From: Deltaproteobacteria bacterium ADurb.Bin207
Lineage (GTDB): Bacteria; Myxococcota_A; Polyangia; Polyangiales; Polyangiaceae
Length of the DNA: 64,000 nt
Direction of reading: 5' to 3'
Assembly (NCBI GenBank): GCA_002070115.1
Contig: MWCO01000007.1
Coordinates: forward strand, 62,001 to 126,000
Shown: one piece after another, positions 60-44,410 of the stretch
Numbering within the stretch: the stretch's first letter is position 1
Layout: each line of letters starts with the position of its first letter
The notes under the pieces: model-generated
Databases searched by the model: none
Told to the model about the DNA's origin: nothing
The model's input: the letters and a program-made list of their open reading frames with translations, nothing else
Made by a program: the position numbers and the translations under genes

Positions 60-2312
<2,253 letters not shown>

Positions 2313-2416
2313 GGGTATCGACCGAGAATGAAAGACTGATAAAAGCCAGGATGGGGAGATGACCACCAACCAGGCGATTGTCAAGGTGGGGCGGCGATGG
2401 TCACGGCTACGGTATC

Positions 2417-2452
2417 CGTGCGCGTGGACCGTGAGCGTGCGCGTGGACCGTG
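2417..2452. repeat. Short tandem direct repeat in the clpA/mscS gap
   Basis: The 17-mer CGTGCGCGTGGACCGTG occurs twice with a 19-base period in the 255-base divergent gap between clpA and the mscS-type gene. It could be a protein-binding site for either promoter or simple slippage; nothing further can be read from it. Confidence 0.6.
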
Positions 2453-2567
2453 GCTTGTGAGCGTGGATCATCGACCTCTTGCGGCACCCCCGCGCCTGTG
2501 GCAGTTTTTCGATGCGTGGGGAGCTTCCGCGTGCGAAAAGCCTTCGGTATTCGCGGACCGCGCCTCA

Positions 2568-3539
2568 ATGACTGGAGTCCATGCCACCGCGCCATCCCAT
2601 ACAACGAGCCCCGTCGTGAGTTCTTTCGCGTTCGAAACCTGGTTCGCAAACCTTACCGGTCTACAACCATCGACCATTCGAAATACGGTCATTTCTATCA
2701 TCGTCGTGGCCGTCGTCTTGCTCCTGCGGACGGTCGTTCTACGCCTCATCCAACGTCATATCAGCGATACCACCCGCCACTATCACGTACGCCGCGCCAT
2801 CAACTATGCTTCCAGTGCTCTGTTGCTGCTCGCGGTGGCCCGGGTATGGTTCAAAGGACTTCAGGAAATCGAAATCATCTTGGGGTTGGCTTCGGCGGGC
2901 ATCGCCATCTCCTTGCGCGATCCTTTCGTTTCCCTCTCCGGCTGGTTGTTCATCCTGCTTCGAAGACCCTTCGTGATAGGAGATCGAATCCAGGTAGGGG
3001 ATACCTTCGGTGACGTCGTGGACATCCGCATGTTCCAGACCTACCTGCTCGAATGCGGAAATTGGGTCGATGCCGACCAGGCCACCGGTCGAATCGTGAT
3101 GGTCCCCAATGCCGTCGTCTTTACGACCCCCATCGCCAATTATACCCATGGTTTCGCATATATATGGGATGAGGTGGTGGTTCGCCTCACCTTCGAAAGC
3201 GACTGGAAACGAGCCAAAAAATTGCTGACAACCATCGCAGAACAACACACCCAATCGTCGAGTGCCGATGCGGAAGAGCAAATCCGTCAGGCCGCCAGCG
3301 AACACCTGATTTTCTTCAAAAAACTCACTCCCATCGTGTATACGAGCGTCAAAGAATGGGGAATCCAGCTCACCGTGCGGTACTTATCTCCCGTCCGCCA
3401 GCGACGAGGTCTGTCCCAAACGGTGTGGGAGGCCATTTTGGAGGCGTTTGCCAACGAACCGAACCTGCGTTTCGCCTACCCAACCACGCGGTTTTTTGAT
3501 CGAATCGCCGAGGAAAAGAGCGAGTCATCCACGAAATGA
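2568..3539 (+). CDS. MscS-family mechanosensitive ion channel
   Basis: Inner-membrane channel of the small-conductance mechanosensitive family, which releases solutes on osmotic downshock. The predicted protein is about 323 residues if translation starts at MTGVHATA; the frame is open for 57 more codons upstream, but those look like non-coding GC-rich sequence. There are three hydrophobic segments: one around TVISIIVVAVVLLL, one around ASSALLLLAVARV, and the pore-lining helix LGLASAGIAISLRDPFVSLSGW. Then comes the typical beta domain (RPFVIGDRIQVGDTFGDVVDI, followed by VMVPNAVVFTTPIANYT-like residues). The C-terminal cytoplasmic part is degenerate compared with E. coli MscS. It lies between clpA and clpS on the opposite strand and its 3' end is only 6 bases from that of clpS, so the two genes converge tightly. 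Confidence 0.88.
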   Translation: MTGVHATAPSHTTSPVVSSFAFETWFANLTGLQPSTIRNTVISIIVVAVVLLLRTVVLRLIQRHISDTTRHYHVRRAINYASSALLLLAVARVWFKGLQEIEIILGLASAGIAISLRDPFVSLSGWLFILLRRPFVIGDRIQVGDTFGDVVDIRMFQTYLLECGNWVDADQATGRIVMVPNAVVFTTPIANYTHGFAYIWDEVVVRLTFESDWKRAKKLLTTIAEQHTQSSSADAEEQIRQAASEHLIFFKKLTPIVYTSVKEWGIQLTVRYLSPVRQRRGLSQTVWEAILEAFANEPNLRFAYPTTRFFDRIAEEKSESSTK

Positions 3540-3545
3540 AACGAA

Positions 3546-3860
3546 TCATCCGGGTTCGACGGAGCATCGAAGCGGATGTCCTTGTTCTCGCGCCAGCGTC
3601 ATCGCCTCCGCGGCCTTCGTTTCGGCAATATCTCTGGTGAAAGTCCCCGCGATTGCCCGACCCTGCGTGTGAACCTGAAGCATGAGTTGCGCGGCCGCCG
3701 CTGGCGTATGATGGAAAATCTCCACCAAAATCTGCTGCACAAAATCCATCGTCGTGTAATCGTCGTTGTGCAGGATAACGTGAAAAGGTCGCGGAGTTCG
3801 TGTGCTGATGTCGTCCTGCTCAAGAATATCGCTTCCAAACTCTCGATCTTGGTCGCTCAT
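3546..3860 (-). CDS. clpS: ATP-dependent Clp protease adaptor ClpS
   Basis: Adaptor that binds N-terminal destabilising residues (N-degrons) and delivers them to ClpA. The 104-residue protein matches the family length (E. coli 106). The ligand pocket is intact: N32-D33-D34 in [10 protein letters not shown], the gatekeeper methionine M38, and the histidine H64 in LQVHTQG. The C-terminal motif [18 protein letters not shown] is also typical. An unstructured N-terminal tail of about 25 residues precedes the core, as needed to inhibit or engage ClpA. The gene starts 12 bases after the stop of the CULT-domain gene on the same strand, so the two are almost certainly co-transcribed. Confidence 0.97.
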
Positions 3861-3872
3861 GGGCGTTACCCC

Positions 3873-4292
3873 TTACGGCTGTTGTGACGGATGTAAAGAG
3901 GTGTCGCGCAGCCGGTCGACAATCAAGCCAAAAAATGAGGTCCGGTGGGAGATGAATCGCCAACCGAGGTGAATTCCGCAACGAGCGCATACCCCCACCT
4001 GCCATTCGTATCCGGAGAACCAGGTGAAATCATCGGAAGCCGGTCCTGTTCCCCGGCATCCGGTGGCCTCGGAAAAACAACCGATTTGGAAAACCAAACC
4101 ATGGGGGTTGGCAAAGGTATGGCGATGGGCACCCGCGACTTCGATCCGATACACCATGGATGTAATCGGATGCCTACAGGTTGCACAAACCAACGTGGGT
4201 TCGGAAGGGACTTGGTCCCGCCGGGTGTGGTGGGATGGTTCCGAGGGGGGGGTGGTGGGTCGCGAGGGTTCGGAACGTAGAAACTGTTGCAT
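3873..4292 (-). CDS. Single-domain CULT (cereblon-type, cyclic-imide-binding) protein
   Basis: About 139 residues, starting at MQQFLRSE after rejecting a non-ATG start two codons upstream; no Shine-Dalgarno sequence is visible. A disordered Pro/Ser N-terminus (about 30 residues) precedes a CULT domain, the fold that forms the thalidomide pocket of human cereblon. Key residues are all present: zinc cysteines C36, C39, C102, C105; the tri-tryptophan cage W91, W97, W111; and NPHG at 62-65. The gaps W-6-W-14-W and W97 to C102 equal those of human W380/W386/W400 and C391. FFGL near the end matches the cereblon KFWGL segment. The histidine two residues before the first tryptophan in human is phenylalanine here. 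Known bacterial relatives are small single-domain proteins (for example from Magnetospirillum) of unknown role. It precedes clpS, suggesting a protein-quality or degron function; that is inference. Confidence 0.88.
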   Translation of the reverse strand: MQQFLRSEPSRPTTPPSEPSHHTRRDQVPSEPTLVCATCRHPITSMVYRIEVAGAHRHTFANPHGLVFQIGCFSEATGCRGTGPASDDFTWFSGYEWQVGVCARCGIHLGWRFISHRTSFFGLIVDRLRDTSLHPSQQP

Positions 4293-4338: not shown

Positions 4339-6156
4339 CTACTTGATCACGATGGGGTTGGGCGGAACGAGAATGAGCACTTCACGGGCATCGAGGTCCG
4401 TGCATCCTCCCGCGAGGACTTTGATGGTGGCCCGGAAGAATTGCGCTTGTTCGGTTCCCTTCACGAAATCGTTGAAAGCGGTCACTTGAAAGCGCACCAA
4501 CGTTCCCGGTGTCACGTTCTGGAAGCCCACCGAATCCATGGTGGGTTCTGGCAAGTTGGGAGGGGGCGGTGGTTTTTCATACGAGTCCGGCACGATAGAG
4601 AGCAGGAAATCGGCGGTGGTTGTGCCCGGCGGCAGCGCTTCCCCCGACAGTCCTTCGGTTTCTCCCACGGTTTCGGTAACCACATCGAAAGCGGCGAAGC
4701 GTGTCAGCATTTGCAGGCCGGTCACCACGCTTCCGCCGAGTCCTTGTCCGTTGGCGTTGACCCTGAACACCAGGGGGCACAGGCCATCCGGGTCAGGCTG
4801 TCGACCTGCCCCATTCATATCGGTGCAGCAGAGCCCCGGTGCACAATTGGCCGGACGAGCAGGAGTATCCCAAGCCTCAGGAGGGATCCGCGCGCCGGTG
4901 GCCCGCGCGAAATCTTCCTCATCGGCTTGCCCGGAGCATTGCGGCGACAATGCCGTTTCAATCGAAGCCACCCCAACGACGCGCGCACAAATGGCGTCGA
5001 GCGCGTCTTTGGTCTGCTGACGATCATGCGCGACGGCTGCCACGGGTCCGGTATAATTGACGCTTTCTCCGGACTCGGGACAGTACGCGTTCTCGCCAGG
5101 AGCATGGGACATGGCGTCGGTAATCGGGATGATGACCGGCATGGAGCCTTGTCGGAATCCGACCCCACCTACGCCTACATGATTGGCGGGAACATTCGTG
5201 AGTCCAGGTCCGGAAAGCCCTTCGCCCGTCGAGATTTGATACAACGCTTCGATCATGGCTTCGGGCCAATCAAGTCCACAGCCAATGGGGCCCTGCCCGG
5301 TATCGAATTGATTCACGGCGTTTTGAACTTGGTTGGCGTCTGAGGTGATGACCGAAAACAGTTTCAGTGGTTGATCGGGCAGCGAACTGCCGCCTTTTCC
5401 ACATTCGGAGCCTTTGGTGGCTCCGTAATTGCCCACCGGAAAGTCTTCGAAAGCTCCAGCGCCGAATTGTGAATCGGGAATCTGTTGCTGCATCGGCGTG
5501 ATCACCTGGTTGATCAAGGCTTGTTGTAAGTTCTTGATCTCGCCCAACATCGATCCGGTGGTGTCCATCGCAAAAAACACATCCAGGCTGCGAACATCCG
5601 TGCTGAACTCCAACGGTTTGTCTTGTGATCCCTGCGGATCGTCGAACGGAAGCACGAAAAAGAAATCCGTTTTTGGACCCGTCTTCCGATACGCAACCAC
5701 CGTGAGCTGCGCCTCTCCTTTGACCCCATCCAATTCGGCACGAACCCGCGTGGTCTTCGCTCCAGCGCTCACCATCGGCATCAAATCGAGACTCGCCCCG
5801 GAAAAAACGCCTATTTCCGGATCCGAAAGCGTCCACGTGACCTTGTCCGTGACATCTTCCGTCGTTCCATCGAGAAATCGCCCCAGGGCCGTATACGGCT
5901 GACTCGACACCGCATTGAGGTCCAATTCGACAAGCGAATTGGTCGGTTCGACGAGTATCGAGGACAATTTATGCTCGATCGGGCCGGTTTCCGCTTGTGC
6001 TTCCGTTCCTCCTTCCCCGTGGGCATCCGCTCCCGCATCCGCGGTGGGCGAACTGGAGTATCCCCCGCCCGATTCCGTGCCGCATGCCACCAGCCCCGCG
6101 AGACACGAGGCCACGACCAGGGTTCCGAGCTTCATGACACCTCGACAACGCTTCAT
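4339..6156 (-). CDS. Lipoprotein with Ig-like and von Willebrand factor A domains
   Basis: A 605-residue surface or periplasmic lipoprotein. The start is MKRCRGVMKLG, preceded by GGAG at good spacing; a lipobox LVAC puts the acylated cysteine near residue 25. A Ser/Asp/Gly-rich linker leads to a BIG2-like Ig domain (about residues 65-155), then a VWA domain opening with DTTGSM near residue 198, a MIDAS-like metal-binding motif. Several cysteine pairs in the VWA/C-terminal half (for example GLCCTDMNGAG) suggest disulfides. VWA domains commonly mediate metal-dependent protein binding; the partner is unknown. It ends 46 bases before the CULT gene on the same strand, so read-through into CULT-clpS is possible. 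Confidence 0.85.
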   Translation of the reverse strand: MKRCRGVMKLGTLVVASCLAGLVACGTESGGGYSSSPTADAGADAHGEGGTEAQAETGPIEHKLSSILVEPTNSLVELDLNAVSSQPYTALGRFLDGTTEDVTDKVTWTLSDPEIGVFSGASLDLMPMVSAGAKTTRVRAELDGVKGEAQLTVVAYRKTGPKTDFFFVLPFDDPQGSQDKPLEFSTDVRSLDVFFAMDTTGSMLGEIKNLQQALINQVITPMQQQIPDSQFGAGAFEDFPVGNYGATKGSECGKGGSSLPDQPLKLFSVITSDANQVQNAVNQFDTGQGPIGCGLDWPEAMIEALYQISTGEGLSGPGLTNVPANHVGVGGVGFRQGSMPVIIPITDAMSHAPGENAYCPESGESVNYTGPVAAVAHDRQQTKDALDAICARVVGVASIETALSPQCSGQADEEDFARATGARIPPEAWDTPARPANCAPGLCCTDMNGAGRQPDPDGLCPLVFRVNANGQGLGGSVVTGLQMLTRFAAFDVVTETVGETEGLSGEALPPGTTTADFLLSIVPDSYEKPPPPPNLPEPTMDSVGFQNVTPGTLVRFQVTAFNDFVKGTEQAQFFRATIKVLAGGCTDLDAREVLILVPPNPIVIK

Positions 6157-6293
6157 GAAAATCTCCGTATCGTCGATAATTCCATGCAGTATCGCAGACG
6201 ATCGCACCATGCGCCAGCGTATCCATGGGGCAGGAGGACAGAACTCATGAGACGGCTCGGCGCGCGGTCATGCCCTCGACGGGCGAGCACACC

Positions 6294-33401: not shown

Positions 33402-34655
33402 CTATTGGTTCATCGACTCCAGGAACTCTTGGTTGTTTTGCGTGCGAGAGATTTTGTCGAGGAGGAATTCCATCGAGTCGATGACATTGAGAGGATGCAG
33501 CAAGCTTCGGAGCAGCCAGACGCGTTGCAGTTTCCAATCGGGCAGAAGGAGTTCTTCTTTGCGGGTGGCGCTGCGATTGATGTCGAGGCAGGGGAAGATG
33601 CGTTTTTCCATCAGTTTGCGATCGAGATGGATTTCGCTGTTCCCGGTTCCTTTGAACTCTTCGAAGATGACTTCGTCCATACGGGAGCCGGTATCGACCA
33701 AGGCGGTGGCGATGATGGTCAACGAGCCGCCTTCTTCGAGGTTTCGCGCGGCGCCGAAGAAGCGCTTGGGTTTGTGCAAGGCGTTGGAATCCACGCCGCC
33801 GGAGAGGATTTTTCCGCTGGGGGGGACGACGGTATTGTAGGCGCGGGCCAAGCGCGTGATGGAGTCGAGCATGATGACGACGTCTTTTTTGTGTTCGACG
33901 AGTCGTTTTGCTTTTTCGATGACCATTTCCGCGACCTGGACGTGGCGGGTGGCGGGTTCATCGAAGGTGGAGGAGATGACCTCACCGTGGACGGTGCGTT
34001 GCATATCGGTGACTTCTTCGGGTCGTTCATCGATGAGCAAGACGATGAGGACGGTATCGGGGTGATTGCGATGGATGGAGTTGGCGATATCTTGCAGCAG
34101 CATGGTCTTACCGGCGCGAGGCGGTGAGACGATGAGGCAGCGTTGACCTTTTCCGATGGGCACGAGCAAGTCGACGATTCGCGTGGAGTTATTGCGTGGT
34201 CCATCGAGGATTTCGAGGTCGAACTTGGCGGTAGGATACAAGGGGGTGAGGTTGTCGAAGAGGATTTTGTCGCGGGCGACTTCGGGGGCCTCGCCATTGA
34301 TTTTTTCGACTTTGAGCAAAGCGAAGTAGCGTTCGCTTTCCTTGGGGGGGCGGACGGTGCCCGAGACGCTATCTCCGGTGCGCAAGCCGAAGCGTCGGAT
34401 TTGGGAAGGGGAGACGTAAACGTCGTCGGGTCCGGGAAGGTAATTATAGTCGGGCGCACGCAAGAAGCCGAAGCCATCGGGCAGGCATTCGAGAACGCCT
34501 TCCCCGAAGATACTTCCATTTTTCGCCGCCTGGCTTTGCAGAAGCGCGAAAATAAGCTCTTGTTTACGGAGGCCGGCGCCTCCTTCGATATTGAGCTCTT
34601 TGGCGAGCTGAACAAGCTCTACCATCGGCTTCTGCTTCAACTCTCGAAGATGCAT
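33402..34655 (-). CDS. rho: Transcription termination factor Rho
   Basis: Hexameric RNA helicase that terminates transcription. 417 residues from MHLRELKQK (E. coli 419), with GGAGGA upstream. The N-terminal helix bundle is followed by the cold-shock-like RNA-binding domain ([43 protein letters not shown]) and the ATPase with Walker A SPPRAGKT. The Q-loop and R-loop region ([11 protein letters not shown], then [20 protein letters not shown]) is intact. The 286-base upstream gap may be a long leader, as Rho genes often autoregulate. Confidence 0.97.
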
Positions 34656-34941
34656 GGGCTGAGTGTCCTCCACCCCCACGTTGTCACGCGCTGATTCATC
34701 ACATTCGGTCTGGCGTGTGAACGATCCGTGAGGGTTGTTGTCGAGGGGCACGGCTCAAAACGTTTATGGAATTCAGAGTCCCCGCGGGAGACAAGCCGCG
34801 CCGTTGAGATGTCGTTGAAGAAAAACGGGGACGTGTTCGCGGACTACGAACACGTTTCTCCTATCGATCAAGCCGGGCGTCCTGTCAATCTGAGAAACGA
34901 TCGAAATCGTCTTCGGCGAATCGTAGGTGACGAATCGAGGG

Positions 34942-41507: not shown

Positions 41508-42854
41508 TCAGGGCATCTGGCGCAGTCGCTCCCACACCCCATCGGCCGCGGCAAGGACTCGTTGCGAAATCTTCTCTCGATCCAGATCCAAAAACTCACC
41601 GCGATGCATGCGAACCTTTCCGCTCGTTATCGTCGCCCACACCGGTGATTCCGTCATTCCAAACACCCAATGACCATCAAAGGTGCTTGCGTCGAGAACG
41701 GTGGGCGGATCGTAATCGATCACGCATAAATCCGCGGGTGCTCCTGCTTGAATCGAACCGAGCCGTGGCTCTGCGAATATTTCTCGAGCGAGTAACACAT
41801 TGTTTTCAAACAACAATTTTCGAGGAAGCGCAAATCCTACCGTGGGATCTTTGCGTGCATGTCGGATCATCAAGTACGCGGACTTGGCGGCTCGGAGCAT
41901 GTTCGAAGCCATTCCATCGGTACCGAGGGCAACGCGAACACCGCGTGCCATGGCGCGTTGCACATCCAAGTGGCCCACGGCGTTGTTCGCGTTCGATTCG
42001 GGATTGTGAACGAGCCAAGCTTGTGCGGCCGCAATGCGATCGAGTTCGGCATCGGTCAAATGGATACCGTGGACCAAAATGCTATTTTTTCGGAGTAGTC
42101 CGTGGGCTTCGAGCCGTTCGATGATGCCTTTTCCAAACTGTTCCCGCGTTCGGGTGACGTCGGCCCCATCCTCGGCCACATGGATATGAATGGGTGTAGC
42201 GGGGTCCACCTGTCGAGCCGCAAGAGCAAGCGTTTGTTCGGAAACGGTGAACGATGCATGCAAGCCGAGCAGGGCCCCGTGGGCTCGGTGGCTTTGACAA
42301 TCTCGCACGAATTGCGCGTTTTCTTGCACGCCATCGACGGCTCCCTGATCCCCGTTTCGATCCGTCACTTCGTAGCAGAGATTCGCGCGAATCCCCGCTT
42401 CATCGCATACTCGCGCCAACGCTTGTAGCGATCCTCGGATGGCATTGGGGGAAGCATGGTGATCGATGATGGTCGTGGTTCCCCAACGGAGGCAATCCAT
42501 CACCGGGGGATAGGCGCCGGCCTCTACCGCTTCGAGATCGAGGGCTCGATCCAAACGCCACCAAATTCCTTCGAGAATTTCTGGGAAGTTGCGCAGCGGT
42601 GTCGTGGCGGCAATCGGCATGCCGCGAGAAAACGTGGAATACAAATGATGATGGGCATTGATGAGTCCCGGTACGATCACCTTGCCGTCCGTGGACAATC
42701 GCGTGGCATCGTTGTTACTCGCCGCCAACTCGGAAAAGGGTGCCACCCGCTCGATCCGATCGTTTGCGCACAAGACGCCGGCATTCGGTACGACGGAATT
42801 GCCAGGGGTATTGGTGAATACGGTGGCCGGGCCTACAAGCAGCTTTTTGGACAT
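41508..42854 (-). CDS. ssnA: Putative aminohydrolase SsnA
   Basis: Metal-dependent amidohydrolase-superfamily enzyme. About 448 residues from MSKKLLVGPA, which has GGAG at 7 bases upstream; a second ATG further upstream overlaps the previous stop by ATGA. The metal motif GLINAHHHLYSTFSRGM, then LEGIWWRLDR, IIDHHASP, NLCYEVTDRNG, HASFT and HNPESNANNAVGH match SsnA very closely. SsnA genes usually belong to the selenium-dependent molybdenum hydroxylase cluster (purine/hydantoin salvage), none of whose other genes is seen here apart from the adjacent cyclic-amidohydrolase homologue. Likely deaminates a purine-like compound; not proven. Confidence 0.9.
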   Translation of the reverse strand: MSKKLLVGPATVFTNTPGNSVVPNAGVLCANDRIERVAPFSELAASNNDATRLSTDGKVIVPGLINAHHHLYSTFSRGMPIAATTPLRNFPEILEGIWWRLDRALDLEAVEAGAYPPVMDCLRWGTTTIIDHHASPNAIRGSLQALARVCDEAGIRANLCYEVTDRNGDQGAVDGVQENAQFVRDCQSHRAHGALLGLHASFTVSEQTLALAARQVDPATPIHIHVAEDGADVTRTREQFGKGIIERLEAHGLLRKNSILVHGIHLTDAELDRIAAAQAWLVHNPESNANNAVGHLDVQRAMARGVRVALGTDGMASNMLRAAKSAYLMIRHARKDPTVGFALPRKLLFENNVLLAREIFAEPRLGSIQAGAPADLCVIDYDPPTVLDASTFDGHWVFGMTESPVWATITSGKVRMHRGEFLDLDREKISQRVLAAADGVWERLRQMP

Positions 42855-42871
42855 CTTTGACTCCACGCTTT

Positions 42872-44263
42872 TCATTCTTCGATCGACGAGCCACGAGGTT
42901 CGACCCTTTTGCCACGGGGTGCATCGGCAAAACCTCGGGCCCTATCGTATACCAGACGGCCGCGCACATAGGTGGTGGTCACGCGACCTTGCCATTGCAT
43001 ACCTTCGAACGGTGTATAGGGCTGGCGGGTCACGAGGTCTTTGGCGCGCACAGTCCATAGGGGACGCGGATCGAAAACCACGACATCCGCATCGTTGCCC
43101 GGCTGTAGTCCCCCTTTTCCGGCCAACGAATGAATTTGTGCTGGATTGGAGGACAATAGCCTCATCGCTCGCGCCAGAGAGAGGCGGCCTCGCATCACCC
43201 CTTCGCTTAGCAGATACGGCAAAAGAAGTTCGACTCCAGGCACGCCCCCATAATCGGTCCAGATGGATCCGGTTGTTTTTTCCTTCGGATAGGCTCCAGG
43301 CGCATGGTCCGTGGCTACCATGTCGAGCGTGCCATCCGCCAGTCCTTCCCAAAGAGCTTGTCGATCGGCGGCACTTTTGACGACCGGCGCGGTTTTGAGC
43401 AGTCCTCCCAAACGCTCGAGATCCTCGACGGTAAACGCCAGATAATGGGGGCAGGTTTCCGCCGTGATCGGGACCTGTCGTGCCTTGGCACGTCGAATGA
43501 GATCGACTCCTCGACCGCAAGCCAGATGCACTACGTGAAGCGGCATTGCCGTTCGCTCCGATAGCTCGATACACGTTTGAACTCCTTTGGCTTCCGCCTC
43601 GGCACTGCGTGCTCTTGCATACGAAGCTGGCATTCCGGCTGGATCTTGCGCTTGTTCGCGCTCGGTGGCTTGCAATACGTCTTGACGGTCTTCCGCATGG
43701 ACTCCCACGCGCATCCCGCGACGACCAGCTTCCTCCAATACGATCGCAAGCTGATCCGCATCCACATCACGGAACGTATCCATTCCGGAAATCAGATAGG
43801 TTTTGATCGATCGGACACCGCGCGATCGAAGTTCGTCGAGACGGCGGCTCACCGAATCGCGGTCGAAATCATTGCCCCGCACGCCTCCCCACAAGGCAAA
43901 ATCTACCCATGCTTTGGGCGCCACCACGGAATATTTTTCATCGTAAGAGCTTCCGTCCGTCACCGGAGGCAACGACGTACACGGCATATCGACAATGGTG
44001 GTGACGCCACCGGCAGCCGCCGCGCGCGTTCCGGAGGCAAAATCCTCCCGGTGGGTAAACCCCGGGTCGTCGAAATGAACGTGACCATCGATAGCGCCCG
44101 GAAGAAGCCACGCGCCCTGCAGGTCAATATCTTCGCAACCCTTTTCCTGGGGGCCATCCCAACACGCGATCGTACCATCGCGAATGGTCAAACTCCCTTC
44201 TCGTGGTCCGTCTTGGGTCGGTAGACGAGCGTTGACGAATCGAAAAACAGTTGGATGAGTCAT
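42872..44263 (-). CDS. Dihydroorotase/allantoinase-family cyclic amidohydrolase
   Basis: 463 residues from MTHPTVFRFV. Signature: PGAIDGHVHFDDPGFTHREDFASGTRAAAAGGVTTIVDMP, carboxylated lysine region SIKTYLIS, HAED, HVVHLACG, TCPHYL and ATDHAPG. It is closest in pattern to allantoinase and dihydroorotase, which open cyclic ureides. The start of ssnA overlaps or abuts its stop, so the two act in one pathway, plausibly purine or hydantoin breakdown. It is divergent from pdxJ by about 150 bases. Confidence 0.88.
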   Translation of the reverse strand: MTHPTVFRFVNARLPTQDGPREGSLTIRDGTIACWDGPQEKGCEDIDLQGAWLLPGAIDGHVHFDDPGFTHREDFASGTRAAAAGGVTTIVDMPCTSLPPVTDGSSYDEKYSVVAPKAWVDFALWGGVRGNDFDRDSVSRRLDELRSRGVRSIKTYLISGMDTFRDVDADQLAIVLEEAGRRGMRVGVHAEDRQDVLQATEREQAQDPAGMPASYARARSAEAEAKGVQTCIELSERTAMPLHVVHLACGRGVDLIRRAKARQVPITAETCPHYLAFTVEDLERLGGLLKTAPVVKSAADRQALWEGLADGTLDMVATDHAPGAYPKEKTTGSIWTDYGGVPGVELLLPYLLSEGVMRGRLSLARAMRLLSSNPAQIHSLAGKGGLQPGNDADVVVFDPRPLWTVRAKDLVTRQPYTPFEGMQWQGRVTTTYVRGRLVYDRARGFADAPRGKRVEPRGSSIEE

Positions 44264-44410
44264 GATTTCTCGCAAGCGCAGCAGGGCTCCATGTCCTGAA
44301 ATGGGGACAATATGCGGATTTCGCAAGCCAAACCAGCCTGATCCGAGGTGTCGTCACCCATTCGAACGCGGAGGGTACTCACGAGGTCTTCGCGCGGCTA
44401 CACTCGCCCC

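Follow-up and report, generated by a model that had tools for sequence, protein, structure and literature searches.

A cereblon-type CULT gene immediately before clpS in three genomes of Myxococcota: a possible link between bacterial CULT proteins and the ClpAP protease system

The window, which is the whole stretch of 64,000 nucleotides analysed (contig MWCO01000007.1, positions 62,001 to 126,000, of Deltaproteobacteria bacterium ADurb.Bin207), contains a small gene for a protein of the cereblon (CULT) type next to genes of the ClpAP system. The features of the locus are as follows.

60..2315, minus strand: clpA, with its start at MSNHGLRF within the open reading frame 60-2471 (TIGR02639, ClpA equivalog, above cut-off)
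2397..3539, plus strand: mscS-like channel gene, convergent between clpS and clpA (PF00924, E 3e-12)
3546..3860, minus strand: clpS, N-degron adaptor of ClpAP, 104 amino acids (PF02617, E 2e-32; aligned to E. coli ClpS structures)
3861..3872, minus strand: gap of 12 bp between CULT and clpS (sequence)
3873..4292, minus strand: CULT (cereblon-type) single-domain protein, 139 amino acids from the ATG (phmmer, AlphaFold, Foldseek)
3960..4022, minus strand: codons of the aromatic-cage tryptophans from W91 (4020-4022) to W111 (3960-3962), including W97 and the zinc ligands C102 and C105 (sequence)
4339..6210, minus strand: VWA-like lipoprotein gene, 46 bp upstream of CULT (weak VWA matches)

The order of transcription on the minus strand is the VWA-like lipoprotein gene, CULT, clpS and then clpA, past the convergent mscS-like gene. 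Because the latter lies between the two, clpA does not directly follow clpS in the window; the usual clpS–clpA order is split and the CULT–clpS pair is left whole. Two other genomes have the CULT–clpS pair, G022 and G172 (G000 is the window genome), and the mscS-like gene has no match at their CULT loci (L022 and L128, respectively), being outside the cassette there. The VWA-like lipoprotein gene has no match at the other CULT loci and is not conserved beside CULT. The distance of 12 bases between CULT and clpS given in the initial annotation is correct, with both genes on the minus strand, and the ribosome-binding stretch of clpS overlaps the stop codon TAA of CULT (TAAGGGGTAACGCCCATG). This layout fits a single transcript with coupled translation, and the two genes are probably co-transcribed. 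An in-frame TTG is also found 6 bp upstream of the ATG start of CULT.

Concerning ClpS, the N-degron pocket had been described as intact, and the alignment to the E. coli ClpS structures agrees: N32, D33, D34, T36, M38 and H64 align with the E. coli pocket positions N34, D35, D36, T38, M40 and H66. The window genome also has the ClpA partner (TIGR02639 at 60-2315), and the ClpA proteins of the window, G022 and G172 all score above the equivalog cut-off of this model. The locus therefore resembles the ClpS–ClpAP N-degron pathway, in which ClpS brings N-degron proteins to ClpAP (PMC8138137), in its clpS with an intact pocket and its nearby ClpA equivalog, but differs from it in the extra CULT gene before clpS and in the mscS-like gene that separates clpS from clpA.

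The CULT protein consists of an N-terminal tail of ~32 residues followed by one CULT domain. No model in the Pfam and NCBIfam profile searches matches it, so routine annotation probably lists it as hypothetical. In phmmer searches against PDB it matches MsCI4 (E ~1e-24) and human cereblon (E ~1e-9 to 1e-11). The AlphaFold model (alignment of 60 CULTs) has a mean pLDDT of 89.9, with a low-confidence tail (residues 1-30, pLDDT 68-73), and its best Foldseek matches are all MsCI4 (TMt ~0.9, rmsd ~1.3, ~100 residues); based on these two results the protein has the beta-tent fold of MsCI4.

The aromatic cage (W91, W97 and W111), the zinc CxxC pairs (C36/C39 and C102/C105) and the NPHG motif are all intact in the window protein, as had been claimed for it. 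The further claim of exactly human-cereblon spacing is right for the cage and the second CxxC, with distances of 6, 14, 5 and 6 as in human cereblon, but not for the first CxxC: the PDB alignment spans 85 residues in the window protein and 87 in human cereblon, which places the first CxxC two residues nearer the cage. Across 144 distinct CULT domains, C36, C39, C102, C105, N62, W97, W111, G110 and F120 are invariant (144/144) and W91 is kept in 143; since 80 of the loci come from the scan of the contig set, for which a pattern spanning the cage was used, the unbiased sample for the cage columns is that of the whole-genome matches only. With its similarity to MsCI4 and cereblon, its three cage tryptophans and its two CxxC zinc motifs, the protein is a member of the known CULT family (bacterial single-domain group). 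Judging by the pocket residues, its cage appears to be of the kind known to bind C-terminal cyclic imides.

Compared with MsCI4 of Magnetospirillum gryphiswaldense (MGR_0879), the window protein shares fold, cage, zinc site and single-domain build, with ~38% identity over 102 positions. With the thalidomide-binding domain of human cereblon (CRL4-CRBN) it shares the three-tryptophan cage, the NPHG hairpin motif and the CxxC/CxxC zinc site; unlike CRL4-CRBN, it has neither a LON nor a DDB1-binding part, and there is no ubiquitin system. The bacterial single-domain family has been described mainly from delta-proteobacteria in a paper that mentions neither operons nor Clp (PMC4287342), and the window CULT differs from those described in being paired with clpS. 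Crystallographers have long worked with bacterial CULTs in place of human cereblon, and PDB contains many such entries; the earlier statement that they have no assigned role agrees with the literature found (PMC4287342, PMC4449219). In the open-licence papers searched we found neither a link between cereblon homologues and ClpS nor a conserved CULT–clpS(–clpA) arrangement.

CULT relatives were found in 15 of 97 genomes of relatives, in 52 of the 318 genomes of the whole class set and in 31 of 379 genomes of the phylum sample; from a collection of genome contigs the best 80 of 273 matches were taken. After removal of duplicates, 144 distinct CULTs remained, and for 142 of them the available DNA extends 400 bp or more downstream. 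clpS lies directly downstream of CULT on the same strand in three of the 144, all in Myxococcota and from two families: the window genome; G022 (contig JACRCQ010000058.1), a groundwater MAG of the same family; and G172, of a different family in the same class. The gaps measure 12 bp (window genome), 21 bp (G022) and 23 bp (G172). In both G022 and G172 the gene order is CULT–clpS–clpA with a divergent gene upstream, which makes CULT the first gene of the operon there. Pairwise identities among the three genomes are 49-57% for CULT, 50-73% for ClpS and 63-67% for ClpA, and no outer neighbour of the pair is common to the three loci. The adjacency is thus not unique to the window genome; uniqueness was what the initial annotation had named as counting against its proposal. 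The survey across genomes that it had suggested is answered in two ways, however: the pair recurs in three genomes of two families, but in the remaining 141 of the 144 distinct CULT genes there is no adjacency to clpS, and most of these lie in unrelated settings.

Assuming roughly 6,000 genes and 1.2 clpS per genome, ~0.03 of the 144 CULT genes would be expected directly before clpS by chance. Three cases have p ~4e-6, and two further cases given the window p ~4e-4, if the cases are independent, which is not assured. When all close same-strand downstream open reading frames of the CULT genes were compared, clpS was the sole gene common to unrelated CULT lineages; the other recurring frames are found among close relatives or are shadow frames. 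As the three cases all belong to one ClpS–ClpA lineage, a CULT that works with ClpS cannot be read from the family as a whole.

This distribution bears on the possibility that CULT acts alone, sensing or buffering a small ligand of the uracil type, such as uridine, and folding when the ligand binds. In that case the place before clpS would mean only shared transcription, perhaps under stress, with no physical contact. MsCI4 takes up uridine as it does thalidomide, in the same pocket; the affinity is in the low micromolar range, and one third of the domain becomes folded in the process (PMC4449219). Among natural-type ligands of bacterial CULTs, uridine is the one best documented in the literature found, and this binding is a real rival to cyclic-imide reading. 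The deoxyuridine complex 4v31 is among the Foldseek matches of the window protein, and most CULT genes are scattered, apparently outside conserved operons. In G182, only 6 bp separate the CULT gene from a convergent gene of the cytidine/guanine-deaminase type (L129 3470-3967, plus strand), a nucleobase-type neighbour that may be relevant to the uridine hypothesis. On the other hand, no recurring nucleotide-metabolism neighbour was seen beside CULT, the only downstream partner repeated across CULT lineages being clpS, and the MsCI4 study did not itself arrive at a biological context for uridine (PMC4449219). We hold a stand-alone sensor to be possible rather than probable.

Concerning the presence of ClpS in genomes with CULT, ClpS was found in 49 of 52 CULT genomes of the class and in 225 of the 266 others (p 0.04). 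In the phylum sample these numbers are 31 of 31 and 296 of 348 (p 0.008), and in other groups 36 of 40 CULT genomes have ClpS. The class and phylum samples overlap; pooled, they hold 69 CULT genomes, 66 of them with ClpS. In the order of G172, four of 14 genomes have CULT, all among the six of 14 with ClpS (p 0.015). ClpS is widespread in the class (274 of 318 genomes), and the CULT genomes of the class are mostly large while several ClpS-less families have smaller genomes, so genome size confounds the co-occurrence. The ClpS search gave no match in the CULT genomes G026, G112, G141, G592, G621, G623 and G631, which are mostly draft assemblies.

In the tree of ClpS and ClpA, the window genome, G022, G268 and all six ClpS-bearing genomes of the family of G172 form one clade (100/100), and 27 other ClpS–ClpA pairs of the window's own family are set apart (100/100). 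CULT is present in six of the nine genomes of this lineage, linked to clpS in three and located elsewhere in three, versus three of the 27 other family rows (Fisher p 0.003), a contrast that is indicative only, as the rows of the tree were picked by ClpS similarity. In the class-level CULT tree the CULTs of G000, G022, G172 and G182 group together (87/85). In the 144-row CULT tree these CULTs do not fall together, but a single clade is rejected neither for the three linked CULTs (p 0.40) nor for all six CULTs of the lineage (p 0.55, with higher likelihood).

These trees would also suit an account in which CULT landed once before clpS in an ancestor of the lineage and stayed there by chance or for its place as operon leader, with no functional tie. 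All the linked cases fall within the single ClpS–ClpA lineage, a single origin fits the CULT data by both of the above tests, and G268, the sister of G022, has clpS–clpA with no CULT, so the operon does without it. Also, Rho in the window (33402-34751, minus strand) is 91% identical to that of G022 and 79-85% identical to those of G172's family, and at E<=1e-30 it has no match in any of 20 further genomes sampled from the window's family, near-complete ones included; in most of that family Rho is either absent, very divergent or overlooked by the search. Since Rho joins G000 and G022 to the family of G172 in the same way, plain vertical descent may suffice for CULT as well, and co-transfer of the cassette between families was dropped as needless. 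Against an accidental pairing, CULT–clpS has persisted in two families whose ClpS proteins are only 50% identical, with all other neighbours changed, and it survives in the window where clpS and clpA are split; both observations argue for selection, and the co-occurrence of CULT with ClpS also speaks against it. We consider retention with no functional tie unlikely.

The observed support for a link consists of the fold, the intact pocket, the gene pair, its recurrence in three genomes, the shared ClpS–ClpA lineage and the near-constant co-occurrence with ClpS. A functional link of CULT to ClpS and ClpAP is supported by these data, to a modest degree. We tentatively propose that CULT is, in this Myxococcota lineage, a second small ClpAP adaptor that reads ring-ended proteins, a reading that we hold to be possible rather than probable; it is the most likely single mechanism, with its rivals close behind. 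CULT would partner the ClpS/ClpAP protease system, and its three-tryptophan cage would bind the cyclic imide, or similar uracil-like ring, at the C-terminus that damage or cleavage leaves on a protein. Human cereblon recognises C-terminal cyclic imides in this way (Ichikawa 2022 and Heim 2022, cited in PMC13001092). ClpS would read N-terminal residues while CULT reads the C-terminal ring, and the protein bound by CULT would be handed to ClpAP. The ligand, the contact with ClpS or ClpA and the delivery to ClpAP are all putative, and this mechanism was chosen because cyclic-imide reading, uridine-coupled folding and delivery by ClpS are known elsewhere and the genes are paired here.

The same gene pair would also suit a ligand-dependent regulator that binds ClpS or ClpA and shifts ClpAP from N-degron substrates to others or back. 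Ligand-coupled folding of CULT would be appropriate for a switch (PMC4449219), and ClpS is known to change the substrate choice of ClpAP (PMC8138137). However, the residue comparison found no residues specific to CULTs of the ClpS lineage that would suggest a docking surface, which counts against the adaptor reading as well; such a switch seems improbable to us.

As regards the proposed adaptor, the recurrent CULT–clpS(–clpA) cassette is a concrete and testable lead that ties bacterial CULTs to regulated proteolysis, and it hints that bacterial cereblons help select proteins for destruction. If this is true, a cereblon-type pocket would recognise chemically damaged protein ends with no need for ubiquitin, and glutarimide compounds could be ligands in such bacteria.

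Looking at the other CULT loci, the neighbour comparison found no general conserved neighbour across CULT lineages, apart from neighbours confined to single lineages. An Acidobacteria contig (L048) has CULT beside a clpA-like gene; the two are convergent and the genome has no ClpS match, so this case was not counted. No CULT relatives were found among the viral contigs, phages and plasmids searched, and CULT is therefore not evidently a gene of mobile elements. The window also contains an overlapping amidohydrolase pair (41508-44326, minus strand), made up of an SsnA-like aminohydrolase and a second enzyme that passes the TIGR03178 cut-off for allantoinase; allantoinase is a type of enzyme that opens cyclic amides, and the pair is 37 kb from CULT with no evidence tying it to CULT. 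The window's family also has a divergent group of CULTs (L013, L014 and L015 of G006, G059 and G039, respectively), each with an rsmG (gidB)-type gene 50-70 bp upstream. In the Desulfotignum-like loci L033, L042, L044, L050, L075 and L094, the gene shortly before CULT, on the same strand, encodes a conserved membrane protein of ~242 amino acids. Upstream of the CULT of Desulfocapsaceae lies, judged by eye, a tetrapyrrole-type enzyme of ~530 amino acids, and a gene for a SPOR-domain protein precedes CULT at L019, L031, L047 and L087.
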